A stretch of 35,458 nucleotides of DNA from an uncultured Cryomorphaceae bacterium (GTDB lineage: Bacteria > Bacteroidota > Bacteroidia > Flavobacteriales > Schleiferiaceae): the NCBI GenBank assembly GCA_937129395.1, contig CAKZNE010000335.1, positions 1 to 35,458 on the forward strand. Direction: 5' to 3'. The position numbers were made by a program, and so were the translations under genes. Below are positions 5,619-35,458 of the stretch, piece after piece. Under the pieces are notes generated by a model that did not search any database, was not told the DNA's origin, and saw only the letters and a program-made list of their open reading frames with translations. Numbering within the stretch: position 1 is the first letter of the stretch; each line of letters opens with the position of its first letter.

Positions 5619-6323
5619 TCAATCGATGGAATCTGAATCTTCAACTTTCAATATTTTTCTACAATATTCCTCTATTTCCTCTAGTTTTGGAGGTAATTTA
5701 TCCATTATTTCTGAGGATATTTTTCGTAATTCTTTCGAAAACGCAGCGTGATCTTCAGGACTAAGCTGTTTGCTATCAATTCTAAATTTTCTATATCCGA
5801 AGTCCCAATGTTTACTACTATAATCATTAAAAATGGCCTCAATGTATTCACAAAGAGGCTTTTGTAATAACAGTTTATTTAGATGGTAATAATTACCAAA
5901 TTCTTCAATAGCCTTTGAGGCAGCATTTAGCCGATCTTCACTCTCTTTTTTTGCATCTGAATGGATTAATTGTATAGGAGCGGTCCAATGAATCATGACT
6001 GCGTGCAGCTTTTGTAGGTTCCCATAAATTTCCACAAGTGCTTCGGCTCTTTTCTGGTGGAGGTAAGCGTACTCAATTTGAAAAGCCATGTTGTCTTTGG
6101 CAAGAGCTGACTTTAAAGGCTCAATTTTTTCTGCAAGTTTTTCTTTAAAATCTTTCTTAATTATTTCTTGAGCAGATGTCAATTGATCTATAGTGGCTAA
6201 CTCTGCCATCTGCTTACCCATGTACTTCAGAAAAGATTTGTAAAAAAAGAGATATGAAGCCAAAAGAAAAAAAGCCAGCTGGATCAGCCATGAAATTATC
6301 TTTTCCCAGGTTATTGAATCCAT
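5619..6323 (-). CDS. Membrane-anchored coiled-coil protein downstream of TIR-STING
   Basis: The start lies 4 bases after the TIR-STING stop, so the two are one operon. The 234-aa product has an N-terminal membrane segment (ISWLIQLAFFLLASYLFFYKSF, about residues 10-31). A charged coiled coil follows (AQEIIKKDFKEKLAEKIEPL), then an all-helical region ending in an acidic tail. I recognise no catalytic motif. It might be a membrane partner or modulator of the STING effector, or a passenger. It is not a CD-NTase: the GS...D-x-D nucleotidyltransferase signature is absent. Confidence 0.7.
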   Translation of the reverse strand: MDSITWEKIISWLIQLAFFLLASYLFFYKSFLKYMGKQMAELATIDQLTSAQEIIKKDFKEKLAEKIEPLKSALAKDNMAFQIEYAYLHQKRAEALVEIYGNLQKLHAVMIHWTAPIQLIHSDAKKESEDRLNAASKAIEEFGNYYHLNKLLLQKPLCEYIEAIFNDYSSKHWDFGYRKFRIDSKQLSPEDHAAFSKELRKISSEIMDKLPPKLEEIEEYCRKILKVEDSDSID

Positions 6324-6327
6324 AATA

Positions 6328-7278
6328 TTAGAAATTATACTCGATAAATTTTATTACTCTTTGACTGAAGGGATCTGCGTATATCTTGCTTTTAAGAACC
6401 GAAATGAAGTTGTTAATTTCTCGCACCTGGATCAATTGAAATTCCATGGAATTTGGAGAATAATCGTGAGGAAGGTACATTTTGATTGCATCGTGAATTG
6501 TAGTTAAAGTAGTTGGCATGTCACAAATTATAAGCCCATTCTTTTTAGTGGGATCTTGTTTGACCTGGGTCCAAATAGGTCGACCTCCTTCTGGTTTAAA
6601 ACTATGTTCTCTAAACTTGTTGTTCGCAAAATAATCCGAAGCACTATTTTGCATAACATGTTGAAGTTTAGTTGGAATTATGACTTGAATTTCAAAATGA
6701 TCATACCGTTTTTTGTCAATTTCTATGTTGGGCTTTGAACGCAAATAATCACATAATCTTTCTAGAAAATTAGTGTAAAATCCGGCTGCAGCACTGGTTG
6801 AAGGCAGTAATCCAAGTTTTGGTGATTTAAATTTCTCCTTAATATGTTCGCTGATAATTTGAACCTGCGATTGCAGAGATTTAGAGATCTGAATATCATT
6901 TTCCCCACCAAATATTGAAATATGAATTCCATCCAAATCGGAAGGTTTTTTTGCTCCTTTTTGAAGCAACAGTATTGCTCTAAATTGACCTAACTGTCCC
7001 ATGAATAAGCCATATTCAAAAACAACATTGTCTCGAGGAGACATAATATCATTCCCTCTTGAGTAAGTCTTATCGTCTTTGGAGCCAATCAATATTCCAA
7101 AATCGAACATGCTTCCCGCTTTCAATAAGGAGCTAAGATAAGAGGCCCCTAATCCGAAGACGGTGCCATCATTCCAAACTATACATTCTATTGCTGAATT
7201 TTTTTCAAGTTGGTGTTTTACTTTTTGAGCAATAGGTAATCCTTCCATTGAAGAACCAATGAAAATTCTAGGTTTCAT
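6328..7278 (-). CDS. TIR-STING effector (CBASS Cap12-like)
   Basis: Residues 1 to about 120 form a TIR-like nucleotide-hydrolase domain: KPRIFIGSSMEGLPIAQKV at the N-terminus and SPRDNVVFEYGLFMG, where E88 is the likely catalytic glutamate for NAD+ cleavage. Residues about 158-316 fit the prokaryotic STING domain. TSAAAGFYTNFLERL parallels the first STING helix, FEIQVIIP a core strand, the segment around GGRPIW a likely lid, and CDMPTTLTTIHDAIKMY a helix near the ligand pocket. Total length (316 aa) matches known TIR-STING proteins. In characterised systems c-di-GMP made by a CdnE cyclase drives STING oligomers that deplete NAD+. No cyclase gene is recognisable here. Domain call is strong; activity is inferred. 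Confidence 0.85.
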   Translation of the reverse strand: MKPRIFIGSSMEGLPIAQKVKHQLEKNSAIECIVWNDGTVFGLGASYLSSLLKAGSMFDFGILIGSKDDKTYSRGNDIMSPRDNVVFEYGLFMGQLGQFRAILLLQKGAKKPSDLDGIHISIFGGENDIQISKSLQSQVQIISEHIKEKFKSPKLGLLPSTSAAAGFYTNFLERLCDYLRSKPNIEIDKKRYDHFEIQVIIPTKLQHVMQNSASDYFANNKFREHSFKPEGGRPIWTQVKQDPTKKNGLIICDMPTTLTTIHDAIKMYLPHDYSPNSMEFQLIQVREINNFISVLKSKIYADPFSQRVIKFIEYNF

Positions 7279-8711: not shown

Positions 8712-9314
8712 TTACCTGCCTGCAATGAGAGACAGAATGTGAAGATCATTTTCTTGGAATTGACGTTCATTAATAAGCTCCTTCATAGCTATATCAGCTA
8801 GATCAGGAGACTCATAAAAACGTTTAGGAGGGGAAGTCACTGAGTTGATTTCTTCCTGCTGAGTACCAGCGTCGTAAATGCCATACACTCGGCATATTTT
8901 CCCAGCCTTTACTTGTAGGGAACGATAGTTATTTAAATCATAGGAGTCCCACTCTGAAATTTGCTTAAACCTTAAATAATGGGATTGCAGACCAAGTTGG
9001 TCCAACACTGCGCAAACTCCTTTTGCAGTAATAGATGCATTTTGACAAATTTCCTCATCCCACAGATCAAGGAAATAGCCCAGAATTAAGGTGTCATCTC
9101 CAATAGTCTCAAGAAGCTCTGCTTTACTCATCGCGCCCAGTTTCAGTTCTTTCAATGCTTTGGCATCGTAGATGGAACAAAGGATATTCTTCAATTCATT
9201 TTGGGTAAAAAAAGATTGAAAGAAAGGATCAATTTGGGCAACTTTGGTGTTGCTGATTTCATTGCGAGTCTTCAGCAAAAAATGCCGAAGTACCACGCGT
9301 GTTGTCATGTTCAT
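8712..9314 (-). CDS. Hypothetical protein in the ATPase-Dam operon (200 aa)
   Basis: Starts ATGAACATGACAACA; either ATG could be used, and the first follows AAAATCAAATACA. The protein is soluble and helical, with an acidic middle (DLWDEEICQNASITAKGVCAVLDQLG) and a tail LINERQFQENDLHILSLIAGR. It has no recognised catalytic motif or membrane segment. It lies 18 bases downstream of the methylase gene and 35 bases upstream of the next gene, clearly co-transcribed. Unassigned. Confidence 0.65.
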   Translation of the reverse strand: MNMTTRVVLRHFLLKTRNEISNTKVAQIDPFFQSFFTQNELKNILCSIYDAKALKELKLGAMSKAELLETIGDDTLILGYFLDLWDEEICQNASITAKGVCAVLDQLGLQSHYLRFKQISEWDSYDLNNYRSLQVKAGKICRVYGIYDAGTQQEEINSVTSPPKRFYESPDLADIAMKELINERQFQENDLHILSLIAGR

Positions 9315-20116: not shown

Positions 20117-23100
20117 TTAGCCATTAGACCATATTAAACGATAAAGTTCTTTTTTATTTTTAGGTGTTTCATTGAAAAAAGGCTCAATGTTGTTAGCTAG
20201 CAAGCCTCTTTGATGTGAATGTAGTGAAAAGAAAACTGGCTTCGGAGTTGTAGATTGTTGTACCGATGAATAAATATTGACCTTATCTGCGAGTTTGTAT
20301 TGGTGACCATCACTCGATGTCAAGATTCCATTGAAATATATACCTCGGTTTCCCATTGACACCATAGAGTTATTCACTGTTTCAAAAGTTTCTTCTAGCT
20401 TTTTAGTCCTAGGCACATTGGTATCGGTTCTCCAGTCTTGTTGTATTTCCTTGTATTTATCCGAATCCAAAAAGCGGTAACTATCAATTAAAGCAATGTA
20501 ATACGAGTGCTTCTGTGAAAAATTTTTGGAAGCGAACCTCTCTGCATAACTGGCCAAAAGATGATATCGCCTAGTTATTTTGATGTGATAAAGAATACCT
20601 TCAACAGTAAATGAGCTTCGGTGATTAAGATTAAATAGCTTTTTGAGCGGCTCAATGCACCTATGGTAGTAAATCTTATCGTTTAAATGACCTCTCATTT
20701 GACGGTTGAGGACAAACAACTGGTGCCATGAAGGAGCAGCATCTGGATACTGCTTTACATTCTCGTTAAGTAGTTGAGTGGCCTGGTGGTAAAGGTTTTC
20801 CATCTGTTTTAGATCCAATCTATCATTGCTAATATGAGCGATAAAAATACCAGCATGAACACTATTAACCACATGGTTAAAAGTTTGTGGGTTGTTTTTC
20901 TTAAAGTTGAGAATTACCCTCATAGCTTCCTGTAAGTCCTTCTTGTCCAATAGCCAGTTTGCTAGATGCGTCACTACGACAGGAGAATTACAATACTCTT
21001 TGACTTCTTTGATTAATGCGGAAAGTCGTTCCTTATTTCCAACTGACCACATGTATTTCGCAAAGTTTAGCTTATACCACCAGTTGGGGCGGTTGTTCAA
21101 CTGAATTATCTCCTCATAAAGAGCAGTTATCTCACGTTCGTATATGTCAAACCCTTTGTAGTTTGCCATAGCGTTAAGTATATAAGATCTAATCAAATTT
21201 TCACTATCAATATTTCTATAATAGAGATCAACCATTTTGGAAAACTTGAGAGTCTTATCATTTGTAAATTTGAGCAAATAGTTGAAGTATGTTCTCAGTA
21301 CAGGTAGTTGATGATATCCGTCATCTATCAATTTTTCGATTATACCTTCAGCAGCCTCTGGTTTTTTGTGGTCCAGGTAGTGACGGACAAGCCTATTTCG
21401 GGCGTGTAACGAGTCATCCTCAAAATTGTGGATAATGGTTGTTAATTGCTCTACAGCAAGGTTAACTTGCTTTCTTCGGGAAAAGAGGATGTACAATTCC
21501 ATGTACGTCTTGGGGACATCAGAAGTTTGAAGGTTACTTTCCTTTACGAATTCTTGAAATACCTTAATCAGTTTCTCTTCTTTAGGGATAAGCTCTTTAA
21601 GTAATTCATCATGTTTTAAAAACTTGTTTCTATACACATTGCGCAAAAAATGAATATGTCCTTGCATACTGGATGTCATACATCTTTCAATGGTGTTTTT
21701 AAACAAACCCTTTTTGTAGATTCCCTTTGGATCATCCCTTGACAGGAAAAATGGAATAACGTTCGGGTTACGAACTACCAGTAAATTAGAGCCTTCTACA
21801 AGTTGAAGCGGAAGGTCATGCTTGAAAAGATCAACATGTTCTACCGATGAGATTTCAACTCCAATTATCTCTAAGCACAAAGCGACCTGAGGTTGGATAT
21901 CATAGTAGTTAAAATTGGCAACAACTTTATACAAGGGCTCAAGCTTCTTGAATTCCGGATGACCATCGCAGAATGACAACCAGATGTTCCAATCAAATTT
22001 AAACTGATAACGTTTGGGGTCAAGAGCCCTCAGGTTTTGTAGCAGTTCAAATATTCTCTCAGTAGTTGTTCGGTTAGAATTTTTTACAAAATTTGGCCTG
22101 AAGGCATTAATCTGGGCTACATCAACGATGTTAAGTTTAGCAGCCAATCTCTTAAAAAGGGAAGAGTAAAATTTACTTGAGGAAAAGAAGATACAGTGTT
22201 CAATCGTTTGAATATGAGATGGTGCGATCTCTAAAAAAAATTGGTTCCGCTTTATACTGGTCAGCGATATTTTCTCCGTCATAAGCAAGGTAAAACCGTC
22301 TTCGTAATAGGTTTCAGAGAGTTGTACGATGAATGCTTCTAATTCATTGAAATGCTTGGAATAATTATCCAATAACACCAGCGAGTGTTTTCCTTTCGGT
22401 TCAGGAAAATACGGAATATTCTTTGGGTCATTGATTAGAAAAGTGTTGTAACGGTTATAGAACTGTTTTCCTAACTGGAACAGAAAAGTTGTTTTCCCAC
22501 TTCCCCCTCTTTCATTAATAGTGATAATAGAAGATATGCTGCCGAGAGCATTTTCCTTAAATCGATCTCCAAGATCTATCGGTATCTCATTGTCTGTAAT
22601 TAAGCGGTCACTTCTTTGCACATGAAGCTGATTGTCAATAATGTAGGGCAAAAATGAAGAGTGGCTGTTATTATTGATATAGAATTCCAACAGTTGTTCA
22701 TTGGTTTTTTTAGTTTCCGAAATCTCTTTCCAGTAGAATTTATTGAAATGTATTAAACCCGAAAATTTGATTGAATCAGGGCGATCAATTGGTTTGCGTA
22801 TATTCTTTTTCCATTTTTTTAATTTCTCTTCAAAAGGGATCTTTTGAGGCCTTATACCATTTAAAAACTGTAAGAGTTTTTTTGGTTTTCCATAGTCATA
22901 GTTGTGAAGATTACTAAAAACATTAACGTGCAATCCATTTTCTAAAAAATCAACCAACAATTTGTAAAGGAACTCTATTGTCTCCTCACTTGTAACTGTT
23001 CTGGGTTTCTTTTTATTCGCAGAATATTTTGGATGAGTTATAAAGTTTCGATACAATCTCAATTCGTGAAGAAAATCGATGTTCTTAGTATACCTTTTTA

Positions 23101-23431
23101 ACTCATCGATAGTTTCTCTAAATGAATTAATTATAATTAGTTGGTCGACATATTTCCCATGATAGTTGGAGTTTACATATTTTAATATCAAGGTATGAAT
23201 GACGGTTTCAATTATTATGCTTGCTTCCTTAAGCTTTTCGTTTTCAGATTCTGAATCAATCACCACTTTAAGATGGTGAGATAGCTGTTGTAGGTCAAAA
23301 TAATTCATATAACTATTAAAAAAACCTCTCCAATCGAACTGGAGAGGGGAGGGTTCATATTCAGTTGGGAATACTCTGAGTGAAGCAGAGCTATGCAAAT
23401 CATTTGGGTCGCAAGGCTTATAACGTTTCAC
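20117..23431 (-). CDS. HEPN plus P-loop STAND-like NTPase with helical repeats (1104 aa)
   Basis: The start is GTG; an in-frame TAG lies two codons upstream and the next Met is residue 42. Residues about 45-165 form a helical domain with RNFITH (R128-x4-H133), the HEPN RNase motif. A P-loop follows at NERGGSGKTTFL (306-317), with Walker-B-like HSLVLLDN (about 349-356), in an NTPase module to about 600. The rest is TPR-like helical repeats, then a C-terminal beta segment (GIYFNGILTSSDG...VFFSLHSHQRGLLANNI) resembling a small OB or cold-shock fold. Effector, NTPase and repeat sensor in one chain is the plan of STAND defence proteins such as Avs. It is transcribed after the CARF/sigma-54 activator. 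No nuclease assay or homology search supports this yet. Confidence 0.7.
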   Translation of the reverse strand: MKRYKPCDPNDLHSSASLRVFPTEYEPSPLQFDWRGFFNSYMNYFDLQQLSHHLKVVIDSESENEKLKEASIIIETVIHTLILKYVNSNYHGKYVDQLIIINSFRETIDELKRYTKNIDFLHELRLYRNFITHPKYSANKKKPRTVTSEETIEFLYKLLVDFLENGLHVNVFSNLHNYDYGKPKKLLQFLNGIRPQKIPFEEKLKKWKKNIRKPIDRPDSIKFSGLIHFNKFYWKEISETKKTNEQLLEFYINNNSHSSFLPYIIDNQLHVQRSDRLITDNEIPIDLGDRFKENALGSISSIITINERGGSGKTTFLFQLGKQFYNRYNTFLINDPKNIPYFPEPKGKHSLVLLDNYSKHFNELEAFIVQLSETYYEDGFTLLMTEKISLTSIKRNQFFLEIAPSHIQTIEHCIFFSSSKFYSSLFKRLAAKLNIVDVAQINAFRPNFVKNSNRTTTERIFELLQNLRALDPKRYQFKFDWNIWLSFCDGHPEFKKLEPLYKVVANFNYYDIQPQVALCLEIIGVEISSVEHVDLFKHDLPLQLVEGSNLLVVRNPNVIPFFLSRDDPKGIYKKGLFKNTIERCMTSSMQGHIHFLRNVYRNKFLKHDELLKELIPKEEKLIKVFQEFVKESNLQTSDVPKTYMELYILFSRRKQVNLAVEQLTTIIHNFEDDSLHARNRLVRHYLDHKKPEAAEGIIEKLIDDGYHQLPVLRTYFNYLLKFTNDKTLKFSKMVDLYYRNIDSENLIRSYILNAMANYKGFDIYEREITALYEEIIQLNNRPNWWYKLNFAKYMWSVGNKERLSALIKEVKEYCNSPVVVTHLANWLLDKKDLQEAMRVILNFKKNNPQTFNHVVNSVHAGIFIAHISNDRLDLKQMENLYHQATQLLNENVKQYPDAAPSWHQLFVLNRQMRGHLNDKIYYHRCIEPLKKLFNLNHRSSFTVEGILYHIKITRRYHLLASYAERFASKNFSQKHSYYIALIDSYRFLDSDKYKEIQQDWRTDTNVPRTKKLEETFETVNNSMVSMGNRGIYFNGILTSSDGHQYKLADKVNIYSSVQQSTTPKPVFFSLHSHQRGLLANNIEPFFNETPKNKKELYRLIWSNG

Positions 23432-23622: not shown

Positions 23623-25116
23623 TTATATGCGTGTTAATTTGTACTTCTTGATTTTAGTATCTAATGTTCTCTCCGCAATTCCCAAGGTTTTGTAGGTCCT
23701 GGATTTATTCCACGAAAACATATGGAGTACTTTTTGGATATGCTGCTTTTCCATGTCCTCCAAAAGCTGAGAAGCCGATGTTCCTTCGGGTGAACTTACC
23801 CGCTTAGGTAAATCCAATAACCGCACTTCCGTATTACAAAATGCATAGAGACGCTCCATCAAATGAATCAGTTCTCGGATATTCCCTGGAAAGGCATAAG
23901 CAAGAAGAATTTGCTCTGCTTGCTTGGAAAACTTTAAAGGTTTTCTTGGGCGTAATTTTTTGGCCATTGATCGGTTGAAATGATTGATACAAGCTTTCTT
24001 GTCTTTTAAAGGGAGCTCTCGAAGGGAAGGACATTCAATTTCTGCCACCGCCAGACGGTAAAAAAGATCAGCCCTAAACAAGCCCTTTTCTTTAAGTTCA
24101 AAAAGGTTTTTGTGGGAAGCGACAATCACTCGCACATCAGTGGGTATTTTTTCAAAACCACCAACCGGAGTTATAATACCATCTTGCAGTACCCTTAAAA
24201 GCGTTTGTTGGAACTTTGGCGAAATATCACCGATTTCATCAAGAAAGAGAGTACTACCACTGGCATGTTCAAATGCACCTTTGGTGTCTTTATTAGCACC
24301 AGTAAAGGCTCCTTCTTTATACCCAAATAATCTGCTTTCCAACAAGTCATCATTGTATGCCGCACAGTTTATAACAACAATATCCTTCCCCTTTCGGATT
24401 GAGTTTTCATGGATGTAGTTGGCGATTATATCTTTTCCAGTACCAGTTTCCCCGTGGATCAATACCGTAGGATGTACAGTGGCATGAGCAATTAAATAAG
24501 CTCTTTCGAGGACTTTATCGATTATCTCAGGTCTGAACAAATCTGAGGGAACTTTTTCATTACGCTCATCGTTAACACGGTTTTCAAGGACTCTGGCAAA
24601 ATCAGATTTTGTGACCGCTGTATATATCTTTTGAGGGAGAGCCCCATTTCTTTCATGGGGTGGACGAACCTGAAAAATTTTGACGTTTTCGTACTCACCA
24701 GCAATCAGATATGCCGCTGTTTGCATTGCAGGAGTGCCAGGAGATGTATAGATCTCAACTTGATATATCTCAGAGGAGAGTTCTGAAATGAGACTAACCA
24801 ACTTTGTTTTAATCTCATCGATGTTTATGACATCGGAAATCCCCATACATCTGGGTTTAAGATTATAATTAGGGAAACTTTGAGACAAAACCCTTGTAAG
24901 TTCAGGAAAATGAGGGTCATTATCTAGGTTTTCCCTACTTGTGGTGGCCAACAAATGATGCTCATCATAATCAAATAGATTCTGGTAAAAATCAAAGTGA
25001 GTTCCAGATTGGTTCACTTGAATCCTTCCATTCTCATCTTTTGTAAAATCATGTTTTTTTGCCATCCATGAGATTAGGATTTTCTTTTTCCCTACGATGG
25101 GAGTTTTCTTTTTCAT
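23623..25116 (-). CDS. CARF-like sigma-54-dependent activator (RtcR-type architecture)
   Basis: Residues 11 to about 180 are Rossmann-like: KKILISWMAKKHDF at the start and the loop IYTSPGTPAMQTAA (about 122-135), a motif seen in CARF domains of RtcR and CRISPR effectors that bind RNA-derived nucleotides. The central AAA+ domain has GETGTGKD (222-229), GAFTGA (269-274, the sigma-54 contact loop) and LFLDEIGD (290-297). A Fis-type HTH closes the protein (KVLHMFSWNKSRTYKTLGIAERTL). The architecture is that of RtcR, which senses 2',3'-cyclic-phosphate RNA and switches on rtcBA. No rtcBA is present; the next gene is the HEPN-STAND protein, probably its target. Family call strong, ligand unknown. 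Confidence 0.85.
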   Translation of the reverse strand: MKKKTPIVGKKKILISWMAKKHDFTKDENGRIQVNQSGTHFDFYQNLFDYDEHHLLATTSRENLDNDPHFPELTRVLSQSFPNYNLKPRCMGISDVINIDEIKTKLVSLISELSSEIYQVEIYTSPGTPAMQTAAYLIAGEYENVKIFQVRPPHERNGALPQKIYTAVTKSDFARVLENRVNDERNEKVPSDLFRPEIIDKVLERAYLIAHATVHPTVLIHGETGTGKDIIANYIHENSIRKGKDIVVINCAAYNDDLLESRLFGYKEGAFTGANKDTKGAFEHASGSTLFLDEIGDISPKFQQTLLRVLQDGIITPVGGFEKIPTDVRVIVASHKNLFELKEKGLFRADLFYRLAVAEIECPSLRELPLKDKKACINHFNRSMAKKLRPRKPLKFSKQAEQILLAYAFPGNIRELIHLMERLYAFCNTEVRLLDLPKRVSSPEGTSASQLLEDMEKQHIQKVLHMFSWNKSRTYKTLGIAERTLDTKIKKYKLTRI

Positions 25117-28381: not shown

Positions 28382-28505
28382 TCCCTTAAAAACTGAGGTG
28401 GAATTGCAATAGTTAGTGGATTGAATATCCTTAAATCCTTAATAATAAAGCATCTAGTTATTGGCCTAATTTCGGACAGAAGTGCTTGAATAAAAATCAA
28501 GCATA

Positions 28506-29618
28506 ATGAAATCACAAAATTCAACCCAAGAAGTCCAATTCCAGGTTTACGAAAAACCTGAAGCACGTACCCTAATTGAAAAAACAAAACGTGAACTGGG
28601 GGATTCTGCTAAGGAAGCAGGAAAGCGTGATGCCGAATCTAGTTTACCTCGGAAATCCGACAATTTTTTACCTTATATAGGTCATCTATTGATATCCGTT
28701 CAAGAGTTAATCAACTCCTTGAGAAGCATCCATAAAGCGGACGAAAATGTGGCCCAAGCTGTCACCACACAAGAGCGAATATTACAGCAAGCCCGCAATG
28801 AAAGGAATGAAATCCAAACCAAATATTCTAAGGCTGAAGGAGAGTACCAAACTCATAAGGATGGTTTCCCTTCGGTTTTAGCTATCATCATTTCGGTGAT
28901 TATTCTATTACTGGGATTGATGGAAGGGGGCATTTCAGTTCAGGCCATACGTGCGTTTATTCCCCATTATGTATTCGCATTGCTCACCTCAATGGTTTAT
29001 GGCTTGAGTTTAACGATCCTAGCCCATCAAGTGATAACATGGTGGTATATGGGGAAAAGTCAAATAATGAAATGGCTGATCAGAATTTTGATAATTGGAG
29101 GTATCTCAGGAGCCTTCTTCATGATGGGATTGTTACGAAGTGGTCAGATACATTTAGCAAATTTAAGTTTAGAGGAAAGTGGCTCAGCAACCATCTTCAC
29201 TTATGCGGACCGAGAAGAAGCTCTTTTGTTCACTTTAATTTCGTGGCTTGTATTCTTGCCCGCAGTTCTATTAACCAAGTTTGCTCCTACCAAAACGCAA
29301 TGGATTGGGATTTTCAAAGCGCGAAACCAGAAAAAGGCCTTGAAGGAAATTGAGGCTAAACTACAAGAACAAAAAGATCGTATTGCCACGACCCAAAGGG
29401 AAATTGAAAACCTAAAAGCTTTTGAAATCAGTCGCAATAGGGCCGCCATTCGAGACGAAGAAGATGCCCTTAGTTTGGTGGAGCATGTGAAAAGTCATTA
29501 TGTACAGATTAATATCCGCTATCGACTTGATAAAGGATCTTTTCCAAGTTGTTTTGAAAAGGAACTTCACTATCCACTAACTACCTATTTCTATAATCCT
29601 AAATCTTTAAAAAAATGA
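28506..29618 (+). CDS. Multi-pass membrane protein with coiled coils, mobilisation operon
   Basis: The 370-aa protein has a cytoplasmic-type helical start, a coiled coil (about 90-120, ERILQQARNERNEIQTKYSKAEGEY), and four hydrophobic segments between about 125 and 265 (AIIISVIILLLGLMEGG; FALLTSMVYGLSLTIL; WLIRILIIGGISGAFFMMG; LLFTLISWLVFLPAVLL). A second coiled coil lies near 280-325. It begins the operon leading to the coupling protein and overlaps the next gene by ATGA. It could be an inner-membrane partner of DNA transfer. Family not recognised. Confidence 0.65.
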   Translation: MKSQNSTQEVQFQVYEKPEARTLIEKTKRELGDSAKEAGKRDAESSLPRKSDNFLPYIGHLLISVQELINSLRSIHKADENVAQAVTTQERILQQARNERNEIQTKYSKAEGEYQTHKDGFPSVLAIIISVIILLLGLMEGGISVQAIRAFIPHYVFALLTSMVYGLSLTILAHQVITWWYMGKSQIMKWLIRILIIGGISGAFFMMGLLRSGQIHLANLSLEESGSATIFTYADREEALLFTLISWLVFLPAVLLTKFAPTKTQWIGIFKARNQKKALKEIEAKLQEQKDRIATTQREIENLKAFEISRNRAAIRDEEDALSLVEHVKSHYVQINIRYRLDKGSFPSCFEKELHYPLTTYFYNPKSLKK

Positions 29619-30334
29619 AAACGCTACTCCTATTTGGTCTGATACTGCTATTTGCGATAGCCTGTAACACGGACCGTCAACCGCTATTGGATATGACGGT
29701 TTTAAAAGATTCCACCGATGAAATTCCTCACTTAAGCTATGAAGACGTCAGGCAGTTTTTGGATTATTCCAACACAGAACTGATCTGGTATGAAGTTTCA
29801 ATCGCTCAAAGGGAACTCACTGATGTGCGTTATGGTATTATTGCCAACAGTCATTTACCTAAAGGAGAACCAAACCAGACCACAGAACAACAGCGAAAAG
29901 TGGCCGTAAAACGGTTTTTGAAAGAAACTGAGACTATGTTAGGCCAAGATTTCCAGCATGGTTCTCAGGAACAAAGCCACTTGTATTTTGGGATTGCTGA
30001 AGAATTGAATAAGCTATCGAAAGGTAAAGCCCATCATAAGGTTTTGGTGATTTCCAGTAACCTTTTGGAGAATACGAATATTTTTTCAGCTTACCGACCA
30101 AAGGATCTCAAGCTCCTTCAAGAAAATCCAGACTCGGTGATCAATCTACTAAACGATCAACTTCCATTAGAGAATCTAATAGGAGTAAAGGTGTACATCA
30201 TTTATCCTGCTATCCCAGAGGATCACGAGCTTTTTGTATCCATGTCTACGCTCTACAAAACAATGCTTACTCGAAAGGGAGCGAAGGTATATATCGCTGG
30301 AAACTTAATCCCTGAAACCCTAACAGCGCCATGA
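29615..30334 (+). CDS. Lipoprotein in mobilisation operon
   Basis: MKTLLLFGLILLFAIACNTD is a lipoprotein signal with lipobox AIAC. The mature domain (about 220 aa) is mixed alpha/beta with strands such as HKVLVISSNLLENT and VKVYIIYPAIP, and a final strand AKVYIAGNLIP, resembling a Rossmann or vWA-like fold without a clear MIDAS motif. It overlaps its neighbours by ATGA on both sides. It is probably an envelope-facing accessory of the transfer or mobilisation system. No named family. Confidence 0.6.
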   Translation: MKTLLLFGLILLFAIACNTDRQPLLDMTVLKDSTDEIPHLSYEDVRQFLDYSNTELIWYEVSIAQRELTDVRYGIIANSHLPKGEPNQTTEQQRKVAVKRFLKETETMLGQDFQHGSQEQSHLYFGIAEELNKLSKGKAHHKVLVISSNLLENTNIFSAYRPKDLKLLQENPDSVINLLNDQLPLENLIGVKVYIIYPAIPEDHELFVSMSTLYKTMLTRKGAKVYIAGNLIPETLTAP

Positions 30335-30480
30335 AAACTTTTTTAACATTTCTAAAGGCCAGTTTCCTTCTAATGATCAAACTTCTCTTGTTAATTCTTT
30401 TTTTCTGCACCAAGCTGGCAGAGGAGCTATTTAAGGCGATAAACACGGGGCTATCCGAACATATTCAATCTAAAAATTAA
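30331..30480 (+). CDS. Small membrane peptide (49 aa), missed by the ORF track
   Basis: ATGA overlap with the lipoprotein gene. The translation is a single hydrophobic helix (FLLMIKLLLLILFFCTKLAEEL) with a basic start and polar tail, and it stops 4 bases before the coupling-protein ATG. The layout resembles the N-terminus of the next protein (YLLLFLVRLSETMEDL), suggesting a common membrane-anchor module. A small subunit that helps tether the coupling protein is plausible. Confidence 0.65.
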   Translation: MKTFLTFLKASFLLMIKLLLLILFFCTKLAEELFKAINTGLSEHIQSKN

Positions 30481-30484
30481 GACG

Positions 30485-32014
30485 ATGAAAAAAATATTAC
30501 GACACCGAATCAAACAAATCGGGTCATATCTTTTACTTTTTCTGGTTCGCTTATCTGAAACAATGGAAGACTTGGCGGACCATGCTTTGTCACAGTTAGC
30601 AGGAAAGGATCATAGTTTAAAGGCTTCTTTTGCGAAAGAGTCCACTATTTTATCTCCTAGAAACAAAGGTTTTGTGCTTACAGGAACGAAAGCTATCCGC
30701 CCAGAAATTTCCAAAATGGGGGTGCTTATATCTGGAGGAAGTGGATCAGGAAAATCCACCATTGTCGGCATTCCGAATTGTTTGACCACCGAAAATTCCA
30801 AAATTATCCACGACCCTAGTTCTGAGTTATTCGACCAATCTTCTGGCTATTTAAAAAGTCAGGGCTATACCATCATCCGCATCGACTGGTCGGATGCCAA
30901 TCATAGTCACAATTTCAATCCACTGGAAAGGGTGAGCACTTTATCAGAATATAGCAAACTAGCCACCCAATTAGTAGAAGCTTCGAGCAACAAAAAAGAC
31001 AAGGGGAACTTTTGGAATTCGATGGCCATTCAATTATTGGTTTGCATAATCCGTATTGTTAAACAGCTACCAAATGAATATAAAACTCTAACCGAGGTGG
31101 CACATCTTGTAGACCAATTACAATCCAAAAGTGGACAAAAAGAAGTAGATCAACTTGTAGCTATTATTTCGGAGAAGGACGAAGGATTATTTGAAAAATA
31201 TGCTTCTCTAATTGGAAATTCAGAGAATACCTTGAGTGGAATTTTGGGTTCAGCCACTACAGCAGTGCAAATGTACGCCTTGGATGAGAATATAATCCAT
31301 ATTACTTCCAATGACAGTTTAGGAGACTTTAAGAAGTGGAGAAAAGAAAAGACGGTAGTTTATATCCACAGCAGCACGGTGAACATGAATTACTACGCTC
31401 CGCTGTCCAGTATTTTTTTACAACAGTATTTTGAATCTTTATTTAAATCCTTACCAACAGAAGGTGAACTAGATGTTGACTTCATATTGGATGAAACCCC
31501 TATTCTAAGTATAGAATTGGACGTTTTAGCTGCAAATGTTCGTAAATATCGAGGAAGTCTCCTAGTAATATGTCAAGATGCCGAAAATCAGCTTACCAAT
31601 TCCTTCGGAAGGGAAAGAGCACGAAGCATATTATCCAATCTTAAAACCAAGCTCTATCTCACCACTAATTTAGATAGTGCACAGCGATTATCGAAAGAGT
31701 TAGGAACTTATGAATACATGGATAAGAAAACCAAGCAAATAAGGAGAAGAGAATTAATGACTCCAGAAGAGATCATGAGTTTGCCAGCAGATAAGGGATT
31801 AATAACAATAACAGGGCAACAATCGATTCTCGCCAGACTAAGCCCCCATTTTCTTATTCTGAGACTCAAAAGGATGAGTGAATTACCACCTGCTTTGGAT
31901 GATGATCAAATAACAGACAAGCAGCACAATCCCCCTAGACTTTTAAACCTCACCGAATACCTTGAATCATTTCCTTCCTTAACTCCAAAAACAAAAACCG
32001 ATGGCCAGAATTAG
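30485..32014 (+). CDS. VirD4/TraG-like type IV coupling protein
   Basis: The 509-aa protein has a short N-terminal hydrophobic helix (YLLLFLVRLSETM). Walker A follows as GVLISGGSGSGKST (about 79-91), then the nearby HDPSSELFDQSSGYL strand-helix typical of VirD4, NFNPLERV, and Walker B DVDFILDETP (about 325-334). Arginine-rich elements (VRKYRGSLLVICQD) and a C-terminal PEEIMSLPADKGLITITGQ close the domain. Such ATPases bring relaxosome DNA to a type IV secretion channel. No mating-channel genes appear in the window, so the element is probably mobilisable and needs a helper. It overlaps the MobC-like gene by 14 bases. Confidence 0.88.
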   Translation: MKKILRHRIKQIGSYLLLFLVRLSETMEDLADHALSQLAGKDHSLKASFAKESTILSPRNKGFVLTGTKAIRPEISKMGVLISGGSGSGKSTIVGIPNCLTTENSKIIHDPSSELFDQSSGYLKSQGYTIIRIDWSDANHSHNFNPLERVSTLSEYSKLATQLVEASSNKKDKGNFWNSMAIQLLVCIIRIVKQLPNEYKTLTEVAHLVDQLQSKSGQKEVDQLVAIISEKDEGLFEKYASLIGNSENTLSGILGSATTAVQMYALDENIIHITSNDSLGDFKKWRKEKTVVYIHSSTVNMNYYAPLSSIFLQQYFESLFKSLPTEGELDVDFILDETPILSIELDVLAANVRKYRGSLLVICQDAENQLTNSFGRERARSILSNLKTKLYLTTNLDSAQRLSKELGTYEYMDKKTKQIRRRELMTPEEIMSLPADKGLITITGQQSILARLSPHFLILRLKRMSELPPALDDDQITDKQHNPPRLLNLTEYLESFPSLTPKTKTDGQN

Positions 32015-32414
32015 ATCTAAAAAGCTGTATAGCTATCTGAGAGAAAATGATGGCCTAGGCAACCCACGTGAGCTGAAAAGATTAAAACGAGAATACCGCA
32101 GGCAGTATCAAAACCAGTGGGCTCGTCAAAATAGAAAAAAACATGAAATCCGTTTTACCCTCTCAAAGGAGGAATACCAGAAAATTAAAATCCGTTGCCA
32201 GCAGGAATCCAACACACCCACTGAGCTTGCTAAAGACCTTCTGATATGCCGCAGTAAAAACGAACATTTTGTAGCAAACAAGGAAGATTTAATGGCAGTA
32301 GCCAAAGAGCTAGGGCTTGCTATTAACCGTCTAAAATCAGTAAGAGAAATTGACACAATCCTTGAAAAACTCCTTTCGGCTGAAATGAAACTCCTGAACT
32401 ATTTAAACCTTTAG
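32001..32414 (+). CDS. MobC-like relaxosome accessory protein
   Basis: The 137-aa basic protein has a ribbon-helix-helix-like segment (about 48-75, HEIRFTLSKEEYQKIKIRCQQESN...ELAKDLLI), then a helical tail with LAINRLKSVREIDTILEKLLS. This is the usual arrangement of MobC proteins encoded just before relaxases in Bacteroidota. It would bind near oriT and help strand opening. It starts inside the coupling-protein gene and ends 2 bases before the relaxase. Confidence 0.75.
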   Translation: MARIRSKKLYSYLRENDGLGNPRELKRLKREYRRQYQNQWARQNRKKHEIRFTLSKEEYQKIKIRCQQESNTPTELAKDLLICRSKNEHFVANKEDLMAVAKELGLAINRLKSVREIDTILEKLLSAEMKLLNYLNL

Positions 32415-32416
32415 AA

Positions 32417-33265
32417 ATGCCCATACTTAAGATACTTTCGAGAAGGCAATTATCCGCTATTGAGCACACTTTGAATTACATCACTAGAGAAGGGAGTGGA
32501 GTGTCAAAACCTCTTTTACACAATTTGCGTAGTTCCATGGAGGATAGGGATGCTTTAGTAAATGAGTTCATCGTCAATGAAGCTTATCGTAAAATTACCA
32601 GTAATCGAATCTACTGTTATCATAGTATTCTTTCGCTATCGGATTTAGACAAGGAGCAGGCGACACCTAAAGTAATGCAAGCCATAGCTCAAAAGTATTT
32701 GGACTTAAGAGGAGATATCTTAGCGGTGGTAGTACCCCATAATGATACCGATAGCCCTCACCGGCATATCCTTGAATCAGCCACATTATATCGAGAAGGA
32801 AAATCTAGTGGACTTCGAAAACAAGAACTCCATAACCTGAAAATGGAGCTAGAGTATTTTATTCAAGAGCGTTTTCCTGAGTTAGAGAACTCTGGAGTAG
32901 AGCACGGAAAAGGAAAACCTTATGTCAAGGAACCTGAAATCCAGCTTCTAAATCGAAAGGGCACCAGTGAGCGGGAACAACTCCAAAAACTTATAAAAAA
33001 TGCCTACTCATCAGCCAACTCCAAACAACAGTTTTTAGACATTCTTCAAGACCATGGTTATTTTCATTATCAGCGAAATAGCGATGGAATACCTACTGGT
33101 CTTCTTTCAGAAAGTGGAAGGAAGTATCGGTTTAAAACTCTTGGACTATCCTTTGAAAAAATCATGGAGCTTGAAAGTAAAATCGAAAAACAACAAGAGG
33201 AGAAACTGTTAAACCAACTAAAAGAAATTCGACAAAATAAAAACCCTAAAAACCGAGAACGATGA
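32417..33265 (+). CDS. Relaxase/mobilisation nuclease (MOBP-like)
   Basis: The 282-aa protein has an N-terminal part with a possible nucleophile tyrosine (LNYITREG), then YCYHSILSL and the metal-binding HNDTDSPHRHIL (H...H-x-H, about 112-123), the three-histidine motif of MOBP/VirD2-type relaxases. A C-terminal domain (about 205-265, SKQQFLDILQDHGYFHYQRN...GRKYRFKTLGLSFEKI) is a separate small module. It overlaps the next gene by ATGA. It is short relative to most relaxases but has the core residues. It would nick oriT, whose site I could not locate. Confidence 0.8.
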   Translation: MPILKILSRRQLSAIEHTLNYITREGSGVSKPLLHNLRSSMEDRDALVNEFIVNEAYRKITSNRIYCYHSILSLSDLDKEQATPKVMQAIAQKYLDLRGDILAVVVPHNDTDSPHRHILESATLYREGKSSGLRKQELHNLKMELEYFIQERFPELENSGVEHGKGKPYVKEPEIQLLNRKGTSEREQLQKLIKNAYSSANSKQQFLDILQDHGYFHYQRNSDGIPTGLLSESGRKYRFKTLGLSFEKIMELESKIEKQQEEKLLNQLKEIRQNKNPKNRER

Positions 33266-33549
33266 AATTTATAAAAGACTATCTCCTGAAATATAAAGCG
33301 AAATCCCGTCAACATTTTTTTGAACTGATCAGGGACAATGGCATGACAGTACAGTATACTAGAGGGGGAATTCCCAGTGGGGTAAAAGATACCAATGGCC
33401 GCAGCTATTCTTGGCAAAAACTAGGCATTGGACCATCGGACTTCAACAATCTTGATCAAAGATACATACTGCTAAAAATGGATGATCGCCTAAATAAACT
33501 TGAACAATTGCGAGATGGTAAAAAGACCGATAGAAACTTGGAACCCTAA
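33262..33549 (+). CDS. Stand-alone copy of the relaxase C-terminal domain
   Basis: The 95-aa protein (SRQHFFELIRDNGMTVQYTRGGIPSG...RSYSWQKLGIG) aligns by eye with the tail of the upstream relaxase (SKQQFLDILQDHGYFHYQRN.. GIPTG...RKYRFKTLGLS): the same Q-x-F-x-x-x-I/L, GIP-S/T-G, R-x-Y, LG pattern. It is therefore a duplicated domain made as a separate subunit. It starts in the relaxase stop (ATGA). It probably binds nucleic acid within the relaxosome. Function inferred only. Confidence 0.7.
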   Translation: MKFIKDYLLKYKAKSRQHFFELIRDNGMTVQYTRGGIPSGVKDTNGRSYSWQKLGIGPSDFNNLDQRYILLKMDDRLNKLEQLRDGKKTDRNLEP

Positions 33550-33560
33550 ACCTACACAAC

Positions 33561-33968
33561 ATGAAAAAATTCTTCACCCACAATATAAAACTACGCCTAC
33601 AAGCACAAGGAAAACAGGCCTTCGCGGATGATCCCAAAGTATTGGCAGTTATAACCAACCCCGGAGATAACACCTCCTTTTATATTACGGGATATCTTCC
33701 TGATCAGGACATGTTATTCGGCTATGTCAAAGGAAACAATATTGAGGGAAGTTGGGGCAACTTTCCAGTAGATGGAATCGAACGCTTGCATCACCTCCTT
33801 CAAGGTAGAAAACACTCGAAACAAATGCAGGTAATAAAACCTACCCCTATTTCTGAATTCTTTCCCAACATGAAAGAAGCGATAGCAGTTGCCAAGCTAG
33901 ATAGGATAGTAAAGGCTCGTAGTGCTGAGCTAGATAAAAAAGACCAAGAACTAGATCAAGAAATTTAG
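33561..33968 (+). CDS. DUF2958-like protein
   Basis: Residues about 22-80 (DPKVLAVITNPGDNTSFYITGYLPDQDMLFGYVKGNNIEGSWGNF) match the DUF2958 pattern: DP-x-V, then TP-like residues, Y-x-T/E-Y/L-P, FGxVxG, E-x-G-x-F. DUF2958 proteins are common on plasmids and integrative elements, and their role is unknown. The C-terminal half here is charged and helical. It is 11 bases after the previous gene, so in the same operon. Confidence 0.65.
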   Translation: MKKFFTHNIKLRLQAQGKQAFADDPKVLAVITNPGDNTSFYITGYLPDQDMLFGYVKGNNIEGSWGNFPVDGIERLHHLLQGRKHSKQMQVIKPTPISEFFPNMKEAIAVAKLDRIVKARSAELDKKDQELDQEI

Positions 33969-34017
33969 AAATCCCCACGGTTCAATTCAGGTAAATGAAA
34001 AAGCTTAAGCCAAGGTT

Positions 34018-34170
34018 ATGAAAAAGGAAGAAATAGGTTTAAAAATTGGTAAAAACTGGACAGATGAGCAGAAGCTTCAGGTTCATTCCTTCCTTGCTTT
34101 TATGGCGAAATTAGAGTGCGAAAAGTATATTAACACAAAGTCAATGAAGGACTTGTGTGTTTCAAATTAA
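34018..34170 (+). CDS. Short ORF (50 aa), uncertain
   Basis: MKKEEIGLKIGKNWTDEQKLQVHSFL... is a plausible small helical peptide in the gap between the DUF2958-like gene and the serine recombinase, on the same strand. It may equally be the start of a truncated gene. Too short for assignment. Confidence 0.35.
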   Translation: MKKEEIGLKIGKNWTDEQKLQVHSFLAFMAKLECEKYINTKSMKDLCVSN

Positions 34171-34236
34171 TGTCCGTGTTTAGACTGGAACAACTCTAAA
34201 TCACACCGAATTAAATCAATAATACACTTTTAAGAA

Positions 34237-34725
34237 ATGGCAAATGTCATCCTATATTCCAGGGTTTCTACAGATGAACAGGCAGACAAGGGCTTTAGCC
34301 TTCGTCATCAAAAAGAAGTGCTTGAACTGTATTGCAATCAAAAAGGATATTCGATTGCCCAACACTTCAGGGAGGACTATTCTGCAAAGAACTTCAACCG
34401 TCCTGAGTTTAATAATCTCTTAGTCTATCTAAAAGGTAATCGAAAACGAATTGACCAAATCCTTTTTACCCGCTGGGATCGATTCTCTAGAAATCAAGAG
34501 GAAGCTTATCGAGTTATTAGACAGTTCCGGAATATGGGAATTGAGGTAAATGCCATTGAACAGCCTCTTGATCTAACACAAGCCGACTCAAAGGTTATGC
34601 TGGCGGTATATTTAGTGATGCCAGAAGTAGAGAATGATAAAATGTATTTAAATGATCTTGGAAAAATCACGCAAAAATTTTCGACCAAATATGGTCGCCT
34701 AGCCTATTTTCGACCAATTCATTAA
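34237..34725 (+). pseudogene. Serine recombinase, truncated after catalytic domain
   Basis: The N-terminal resolvase domain is intact: ILYSRVSTDEQADKGFSLRHQ with the catalytic serine in RVST (S11) and arginines R9 and RWDRFSRN, then MLAVYLVMPEVENDK. Normally this continues into a helix with RRAKKEGRW and a recombinase DNA-binding domain. Here the reading breaks at ENDK, and the next 27 codons (MYLNDLGKITQKFS...) do not fit the family. So the gene is a fragment cut by recombination or insertion at about 34648. Probably non-functional. Confidence 0.8.
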
Positions 34726-34895
34726 ATGCGATTGGCATTAATGCAATACAAGTAGAGTATCCGTTCAAGCCTTTAAGGGATTTAGAGCGTGAAATTAAAC
34801 CCTGTGTCTTTAGGATTGTTGTACTCGCAGATAGTTTTTCTTCTATAACCCGAAAGAATTTGTTAGGTGCAATCGAAGTTTTCCAAAACCACTGA
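34656..34895 (+). pseudogene. Unassigned coding-like fragment without a start
   Basis: A frame open for 79 codons, not in the ORF track because it has no ATG, reads SWKNHAKIFDQIWSPSLFS... to VVLADSFSSITRKNLLGAIEVFQNH and stops. The composition is protein-like, unlike its antisense shadow (34667-34915). It begins right after the break in the serine recombinase. It looks like the C-terminus of a gene whose front is elsewhere. Family unknown. Confidence 0.4.
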
Positions 34896-34984
34896 TTTCT
34901 GCGATTACTGGTCATAGTCCTGCTGGAGGATGTATTTTGGCGATTTGTTCTGATTATAGAGTGATGGCAGAAGAATCAAAATTT
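34883..34984 (+). pseudogene. Enoyl-CoA hydratase/isomerase (crotonase) fragment
   Basis: The frame PKPLISAITGHSPAGGCILA followed by ICSDYRVMAEESKF is the oxyanion-hole region of crotonase-family enzymes (K-P-x-I-A/S-x-I-x-G, AGG, D-Y-R-V-M-A). Only about 34 codons are present, with no N- or C-terminal part, and the frame then continues as an unrelated ORF. So it is a piece of a beta-oxidation-type gene caught in a rearranged junction. Confidence 0.7.
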
Positions 34985-35305
34985 GATGGTCTTACGCAAA
35001 AACAACAAGCTGCGATTGATTTTGCGATAAACAAAGAGCACCTTAGTGGTTTGTTAAAATCCAATAGGGAAAATGATGTACTCATAGATTTTGTGGTGAT
35101 TGATGGTAAGGACGAATGGCGTGATGGACTTAGAGAAGTCTACGCTAACGTGTCACCAGAGGCTTTGGATAATCTTGTAGATAAACATCAAGCATATATT
35201 CAAGAGCAAGTGGAAAAAGCTTCTTTTTCTCCCTCTGTGCTTCCTTTCGATGGGGGGGATAACGCCTCCCTTCCTCAGAAAACAGGGAATACTGTCCAAA
35301 GGTAG
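34985..35305 (+). CDS. Unrecognised ORF fused in frame to the crotonase fragment
   Basis: The frame continues DGLTQKQQAAIDFAINKEHLSGLL...LIDFVVIDGKDEWRDGLREVYANVSPEALDNLVDKHQAYIQEQ and ends in a polar tail. The part is soluble and acidic and reads like genuine coding sequence, but has no start codon of its own near the junction (the ORF-track start at 34937 is a TTG inside the crotonase fragment). It may be the 3' part of a truncated gene. Family unknown. Confidence 0.4.
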   Translation, partial: DGLTQKQQAAIDFAINKEHLSGLLKSNRENDVLIDFVVIDGKDEWRDGLREVYANVSPEALDNLVDKHQAYIQEQVEKASFSPSVLPFDGGDNASLPQKTGNTVQR

Positions 35306-35424
35306 CTATTGAAGGAAGCAGATTTATTCAGCACCCCGTTGATTTGCGCTCCGCTGCTTTGTGATATTTGACACCGTGTTTGTTTGTTTCAGATAAAAAC
35401 AAAGCGATGTGTGAGAGGTTGTAA

Positions 35425-35458
35425 TGGTGTGTTACATCAGCAATAAAATCTGGGTAAC
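35425..35458 (+). CDS. Possible SRAP (HMCES/YedK-like) protein start, cut by window edge
   Basis: A GTG near 35425 followed by TGT would give MCYISNKIWV, the Met-Cys start needed by SRAP-domain DNA-crosslink proteins, whose Cys2 is catalytic. Only about 11 codons are visible, so this is a weak suggestion. Confidence 0.2.

Follow-up and report, generated by a model that had tools for sequence, protein, structure and literature searches.

The final 0.8 kb of the window analysed here holds a row of short, broken open reading frames, which raises the question of which genes they derive from and how they came to lie end to end beside the genes of a conjugative element. The window is the entire contig C335 (35,458 bp), and the right edge of the mosaic region is the edge of the contig, not of the window alone. 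The contig belongs to a 3.8 Mb draft genome (346 contigs; estimated completeness 91%, estimated contamination 3.9%), and the mosaic is known from this single draft assembly. The contig ends shared no 15-mers in an end-to-end comparison, and a circular contig was not found.

Gene pieces of the mosaic

The analyses revealed at least three broken genes, placed end to end on one strand. The identified pieces are each cut inside a gene and represent three unrelated families with independent, strong similarity; the glycosyltransferase, recombinase and crotonase similarities are far beyond chance. The leftmost piece (34237..34653, plus strand) is the remnant of a serine recombinase gene, which has a start codon and retains the whole catalytic domain but breaks off near residue 139 of about 504-529. 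The N-terminal resolvase catalytic domain was matched by Pfam on the frame 34,237-34,722 (Resolvase, PF00239; E=5.2e-23), and the remnant is 68% identical, up to residue 138, to an intact 529-aa gene of a sister species (G002:C9:77555). Alignment with intact recombinases of roughly 500-530 residues from G002, G061, G064 and one viral contig stops at residue 138-139 ('PEVENDK...LN'), at about 34,653, with nothing in common beyond, and profile homology likewise ends at residue 139 of 504-529, the long C-terminal part (total about 500 aa) being absent. The break after the catalytic domain, proposed in an earlier note on this DNA, was thus recovered. A search of the genome's own assembly, run without a positive control, did not find the missing C-terminal half, and the idea of an insertion that split the recombinase and left the second half at another place in the assembly was rejected because no such half was found.

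The open frame at 34,656-34,892 is exactly 79 codons long, as the earlier note had counted, has no usable start and is preceded and followed by stops. It contains a middle piece of a group-1 (GT-B) glycosyltransferase (34656..34889, plus strand), corresponding to about residues 110-197 of about 415 and lying in another frame than the recombinase. A profile built from two intact group-1 genes of about 415 residues, both from G064, another genus of the same order, matched this frame with E=1.7e-9 over 80 residues, the sole match in the six-frame window, and pairwise BLASTP of the frame with the two genes gave 4e-10 and 9e-8. The same two genes were found repeatedly when genome samples of the order, class and phylum were searched with the composite protein, and the intact G064 relative carries Glycos_transf_1 (PF00534; E=5.2e-12). 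The 79-codon frame itself has no Pfam match, and a genome contig scan queried with the glycosyltransferase piece found no relative. The C-terminal catalytic domain of GT-B glycosyltransferases is absent from the piece. Judged by these similarities, the startless frame is no orphan; it is a glycosyltransferase fragment.

The third piece (34880..34984, plus strand) is a 35-codon internal segment of a 3,2-enoyl-CoA isomerase-like crotonase, corresponding to residues 92-126 of about 256. Positions 93-121 of ECH_1 (PF00378), the crotonase core motif region, were matched with E=5e-7 over 30 residues alone, and a profile of same-order crotonase relatives matched the open frame with E=2.8e-15. The closest solved structure is the mitochondrial 3,2-trans-enoyl-CoA isomerase (1e-7). 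The piece is 60-71% identical to intact 3,2-enoyl-CoA isomerase-like genes in another family of the same order and has the string FPKPLISAITGHSPAGGC in common with its closest relative. The complete crotonase domain of about 250 aa is absent, both domain ends being missing from the 35 residues. Parent genes, the search for which the earlier note had recommended, were also sought in the own assembly, with no match. The genome has crotonase genes, none of them a matching parent, and the crotonase piece found only itself in a DNA search of its own genome and only a weak match (27%) in a protein search. A single frameshifted crotonase gene made up of the glycosyltransferase and crotonase pieces had been considered on account of a joint match and was ruled out by alignment.

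The enoyl-CoA hydratase-family piece continues in frame, as had been noticed earlier, into a dissimilar coding-like piece (34985..35305, plus strand), which ends at a stop codon. No relative of this last piece was found in plasmids and phages (both by tblastn), viral contigs, genome contigs or sampled genomes of the order, class and phylum, and nothing matched it in Pfam, NCBIfam, PHROGs or solved structures; its single-sequence fold had low confidence (pLDDT 44.7). Two GL motifs of the crotonase relatives recur in the piece, ungapped, at the same distance from each other, and a shuffle test of this spacing, whose register had been picked out post hoc, gave p of about 0.004-0.013, as might be expected if the open frame 34,835-35,302 were one real, very divergent crotonase-family protein and the last piece not foreign. 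This is nevertheless very improbable: the ungapped alignment to crotonases has a negative raw score, with 7-8 of 62 identities directly after the stretch of 60-71% identity, and the last piece alone has no ECH match and scores 0-3 bits against crotonase profiles, where shuffles were equally good in 106/2000 and 14/2000 cases. The N-terminal third of the crotonase family is also missing from the open frame. The GL spacing was not taken as homology because of the negative raw score and the profile score of 0-3 bits. The contig ends with a further 153 bp (35306..35458), whose six-frame pieces match no Pfam family.

Joints between the pieces

The glycosyltransferase and crotonase homologies overlap, as had been described for the two frames. 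Homology to crotonases sets in at 34,880, and that to glycosyltransferases extends to 34,883 for certain and to 34,889 by profile alignment, so that the overlap is 4-10 bp (TTTC to TTTCCAAAAC, 34,880-34,889). The overlap is consistent with a microhomology joint. Apparent microhomology is visible at this joint only, because the joint between recombinase and glycosyltransferase is narrowed down no further than 34,643-34,674, and the joint of the crotonase piece to the last piece can be placed only approximately, at about 34,985. The reading frame shifts at two joints, several joints fall within about 350 bp, and the identified pieces all point in one direction.

The earlier note had named an intact homologue with this mosaic order as the case that would speak for a real gene; relatives were examined for one, and neither such a homologue nor the same piece order was found in any of them. 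DNA and protein searches detected no second copy of the mosaic in the same assembly, and neither the mosaic nor a joint was found in plasmids (distant DNA search), viral contigs (exact pattern) or relatives (DNA). A functional fusion is unlikely because the pieces are internal, unrelated and without starts, and the frame changes at two joints. A working product would not be expected from any piece: the glycosyltransferase piece is startless and lies between stops, and neither end of the domain is present in the crotonase piece.

Position relative to the conjugative element

The block at 28,500-33,968 comprises a coupling protein, a mobilisation protein, a relaxase and small genes, and is collinear, mostly at 45-70% protein identity, with blocks in the two sister species, G001 (G001:C29) and G002 (G002:C7), which are both other genomes of the genus. 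In these, the block is followed by a 124-aa paralogue of its last small gene, a 531-aa protein and two genes that, in our own reading of the sequences, encode tyrosine recombinases. The window departs from both at about 33,968; beyond this point lie a 50-codon frame, then the cut-off serine recombinase and the other gene pieces. Element homology therefore stops about 0.7 kb before the mosaic, as the two tyrosine recombinases follow the block in the sister species instead. Because homology ends at about 33,968 and other genes follow, the right module of the element must have been lost, replaced or moved in this genome. These results support the earlier reading of the locus as an element edge insofar as the synteny of the element breaks here, which in itself shows neither an attachment site nor a boundary.

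Several further features of the region were recorded. The 50-codon frame (34018-34170) lies within 33968-34236, between the last conserved element gene and the recombinase; it has no relatives in the compared loci, and searches of Pfam, NCBIfam and PHROGs gave nothing significant. The segment 3951-17412 is inverted as a unit relative to 28500-33968, both blocks being on one strand in G001:C29 and G002:C7, and because of this difference in relative orientation one inversion, or a misassembly, must lie between them. On the minus strand, 6328-7278 encodes a TIR-STING protein, with a CAP12-type TIR domain and a prokaryotic STING domain, whose score does not reach the curated Cap12 cut-off. None of its neighbouring proteins that were scanned matched a CD-NTase model, so that it looks like an orphan. 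The gene immediately downstream of it encodes a 234-aa protein without a named function (5619-6323). An RtcR-like regulator with a CARF domain, a sigma-54 AAA domain and a Fis-type HTH is encoded at 23623-25116 (minus strand) and adjoins a 1104-aa protein (20117-23431) with no PADLOC or NCBIfam match. In G002:C9, the final codons of the intact 529-aa serine recombinase (L013:7556-9145) overlie a tRNA-Arg (TCT) gene (9068-9142) on the opposite strand, and this overlap hints that the 3' end of that integrase gene contains a tRNA attachment site.

Origin of the mosaic and comparison with known systems

The mosaic is probably non-functional genomic debris, formed by illegitimate joining at the edge of a decayed element. 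According to this explanation, a large serine recombinase gene beside the conjugation module would have lost everything past its catalytic domain, presumably after damage or rearrangement at the right side of the element, and short internal pieces of a glycosyltransferase gene, an enoyl-CoA isomerase-like gene and one further gene would have become attached behind it. Illegitimate end joining of the microhomology type, or template switching, would have done this, probably stepwise, with decay to follow. The joints appear to be biological and the joining non-homologous. An appreciably less probable, though possible, origin is an artefact, in which chimeric molecules or a wrong join at the contig end would have placed pieces from other community members behind a truncated recombinase. 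The location at a contig terminus, in a single assembly of 346 contigs with 3.9% estimated contamination, fits such an origin, as does the finding that searches recovered close crotonase relatives from a different family of the order but none from the genome itself, where the donor appears to be absent. Graph assemblers, however, need long words in common to make a join, and the resolved joint, with its overlap of at most about 10 bp, falls short of this; several joints within about 350 bp would each need a physical chimera of their own, and all identified pieces share one orientation. Moreover, a sample of 40 contig starts from this assembly, judged by open-frame length only and not for mosaicism, showed mostly ordinary long genes, so that broken ends are not general in the assembly. 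On balance, a real structure is favoured over an artefact.

The earlier note had offered illegitimate insertion or gene capture, of which the illegitimate joining fits the short overlap, whereas active capture gained no support, no att-like site, tandem unit or second copy being found at the mosaic. Active capture or shuffling of gene pieces by the serine recombinase at its site, with the array serving as a cassette store, would account for pieces in a single orientation directly behind a site-specific recombinase. It is nonetheless highly improbable, since the recombinase has lost its C-terminal part and its intact G002 relative, a full-length gene whose 3' end overlaps the tRNA-Arg gene, has no such break; in addition, the pieces are internal gene fragments without their own starts, and shared bases are visible at one joint only. 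A role of the recombinase as maker of the joints is not supported. Even less credence is given to a reading in which recurrent uptake at the edge of a bacterial mobile element would place short internal fragments of foreign genes, all oriented alike, behind a recombinase, in a manner comparable to gene-fragment capture by eukaryotic transposons.

The case has little significance by itself. It shows that an apparent 'orphan' frame next to a contig end may prove to consist of pieces of genes that can be named, and it marks the departure of a conjugative element from its sister elements. If the joints were confirmed and recurrent elsewhere, they would document a series of adjacent non-homologous joins in a bacterial mobile element.

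The mosaic is an ordinary kind of structure when compared with known systems. The recombinase remnant shares its catalytic domain with large serine recombinases such as the intact gene of G002:C9 (529 aa, 68% identical) and differs from them in lacking the C-terminal three quarters. Homology-assisted illegitimate integration has been described in three naturally competent species (PMC2884548), and homology-facilitated illegitimate recombination is reported, at low efficiency, during conjugation of E. coli (PMC3240628). Such a process would give an insert with a normal and a non-homologous side beside conjugation genes; no homologous anchor was found for the pieces here. Small variable segments of bacterial genomes have also been attributed to illegitimate recombination (PMC2884548). 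The mosaic differs from such microhomology-joined remnants in having several unrelated pieces in a row, not one replaced segment, at a contig end of a single draft; it resembles them in its short foreign or replaced segments, free of a site-specific or transposition signature, and in the few bases shared at a joint.
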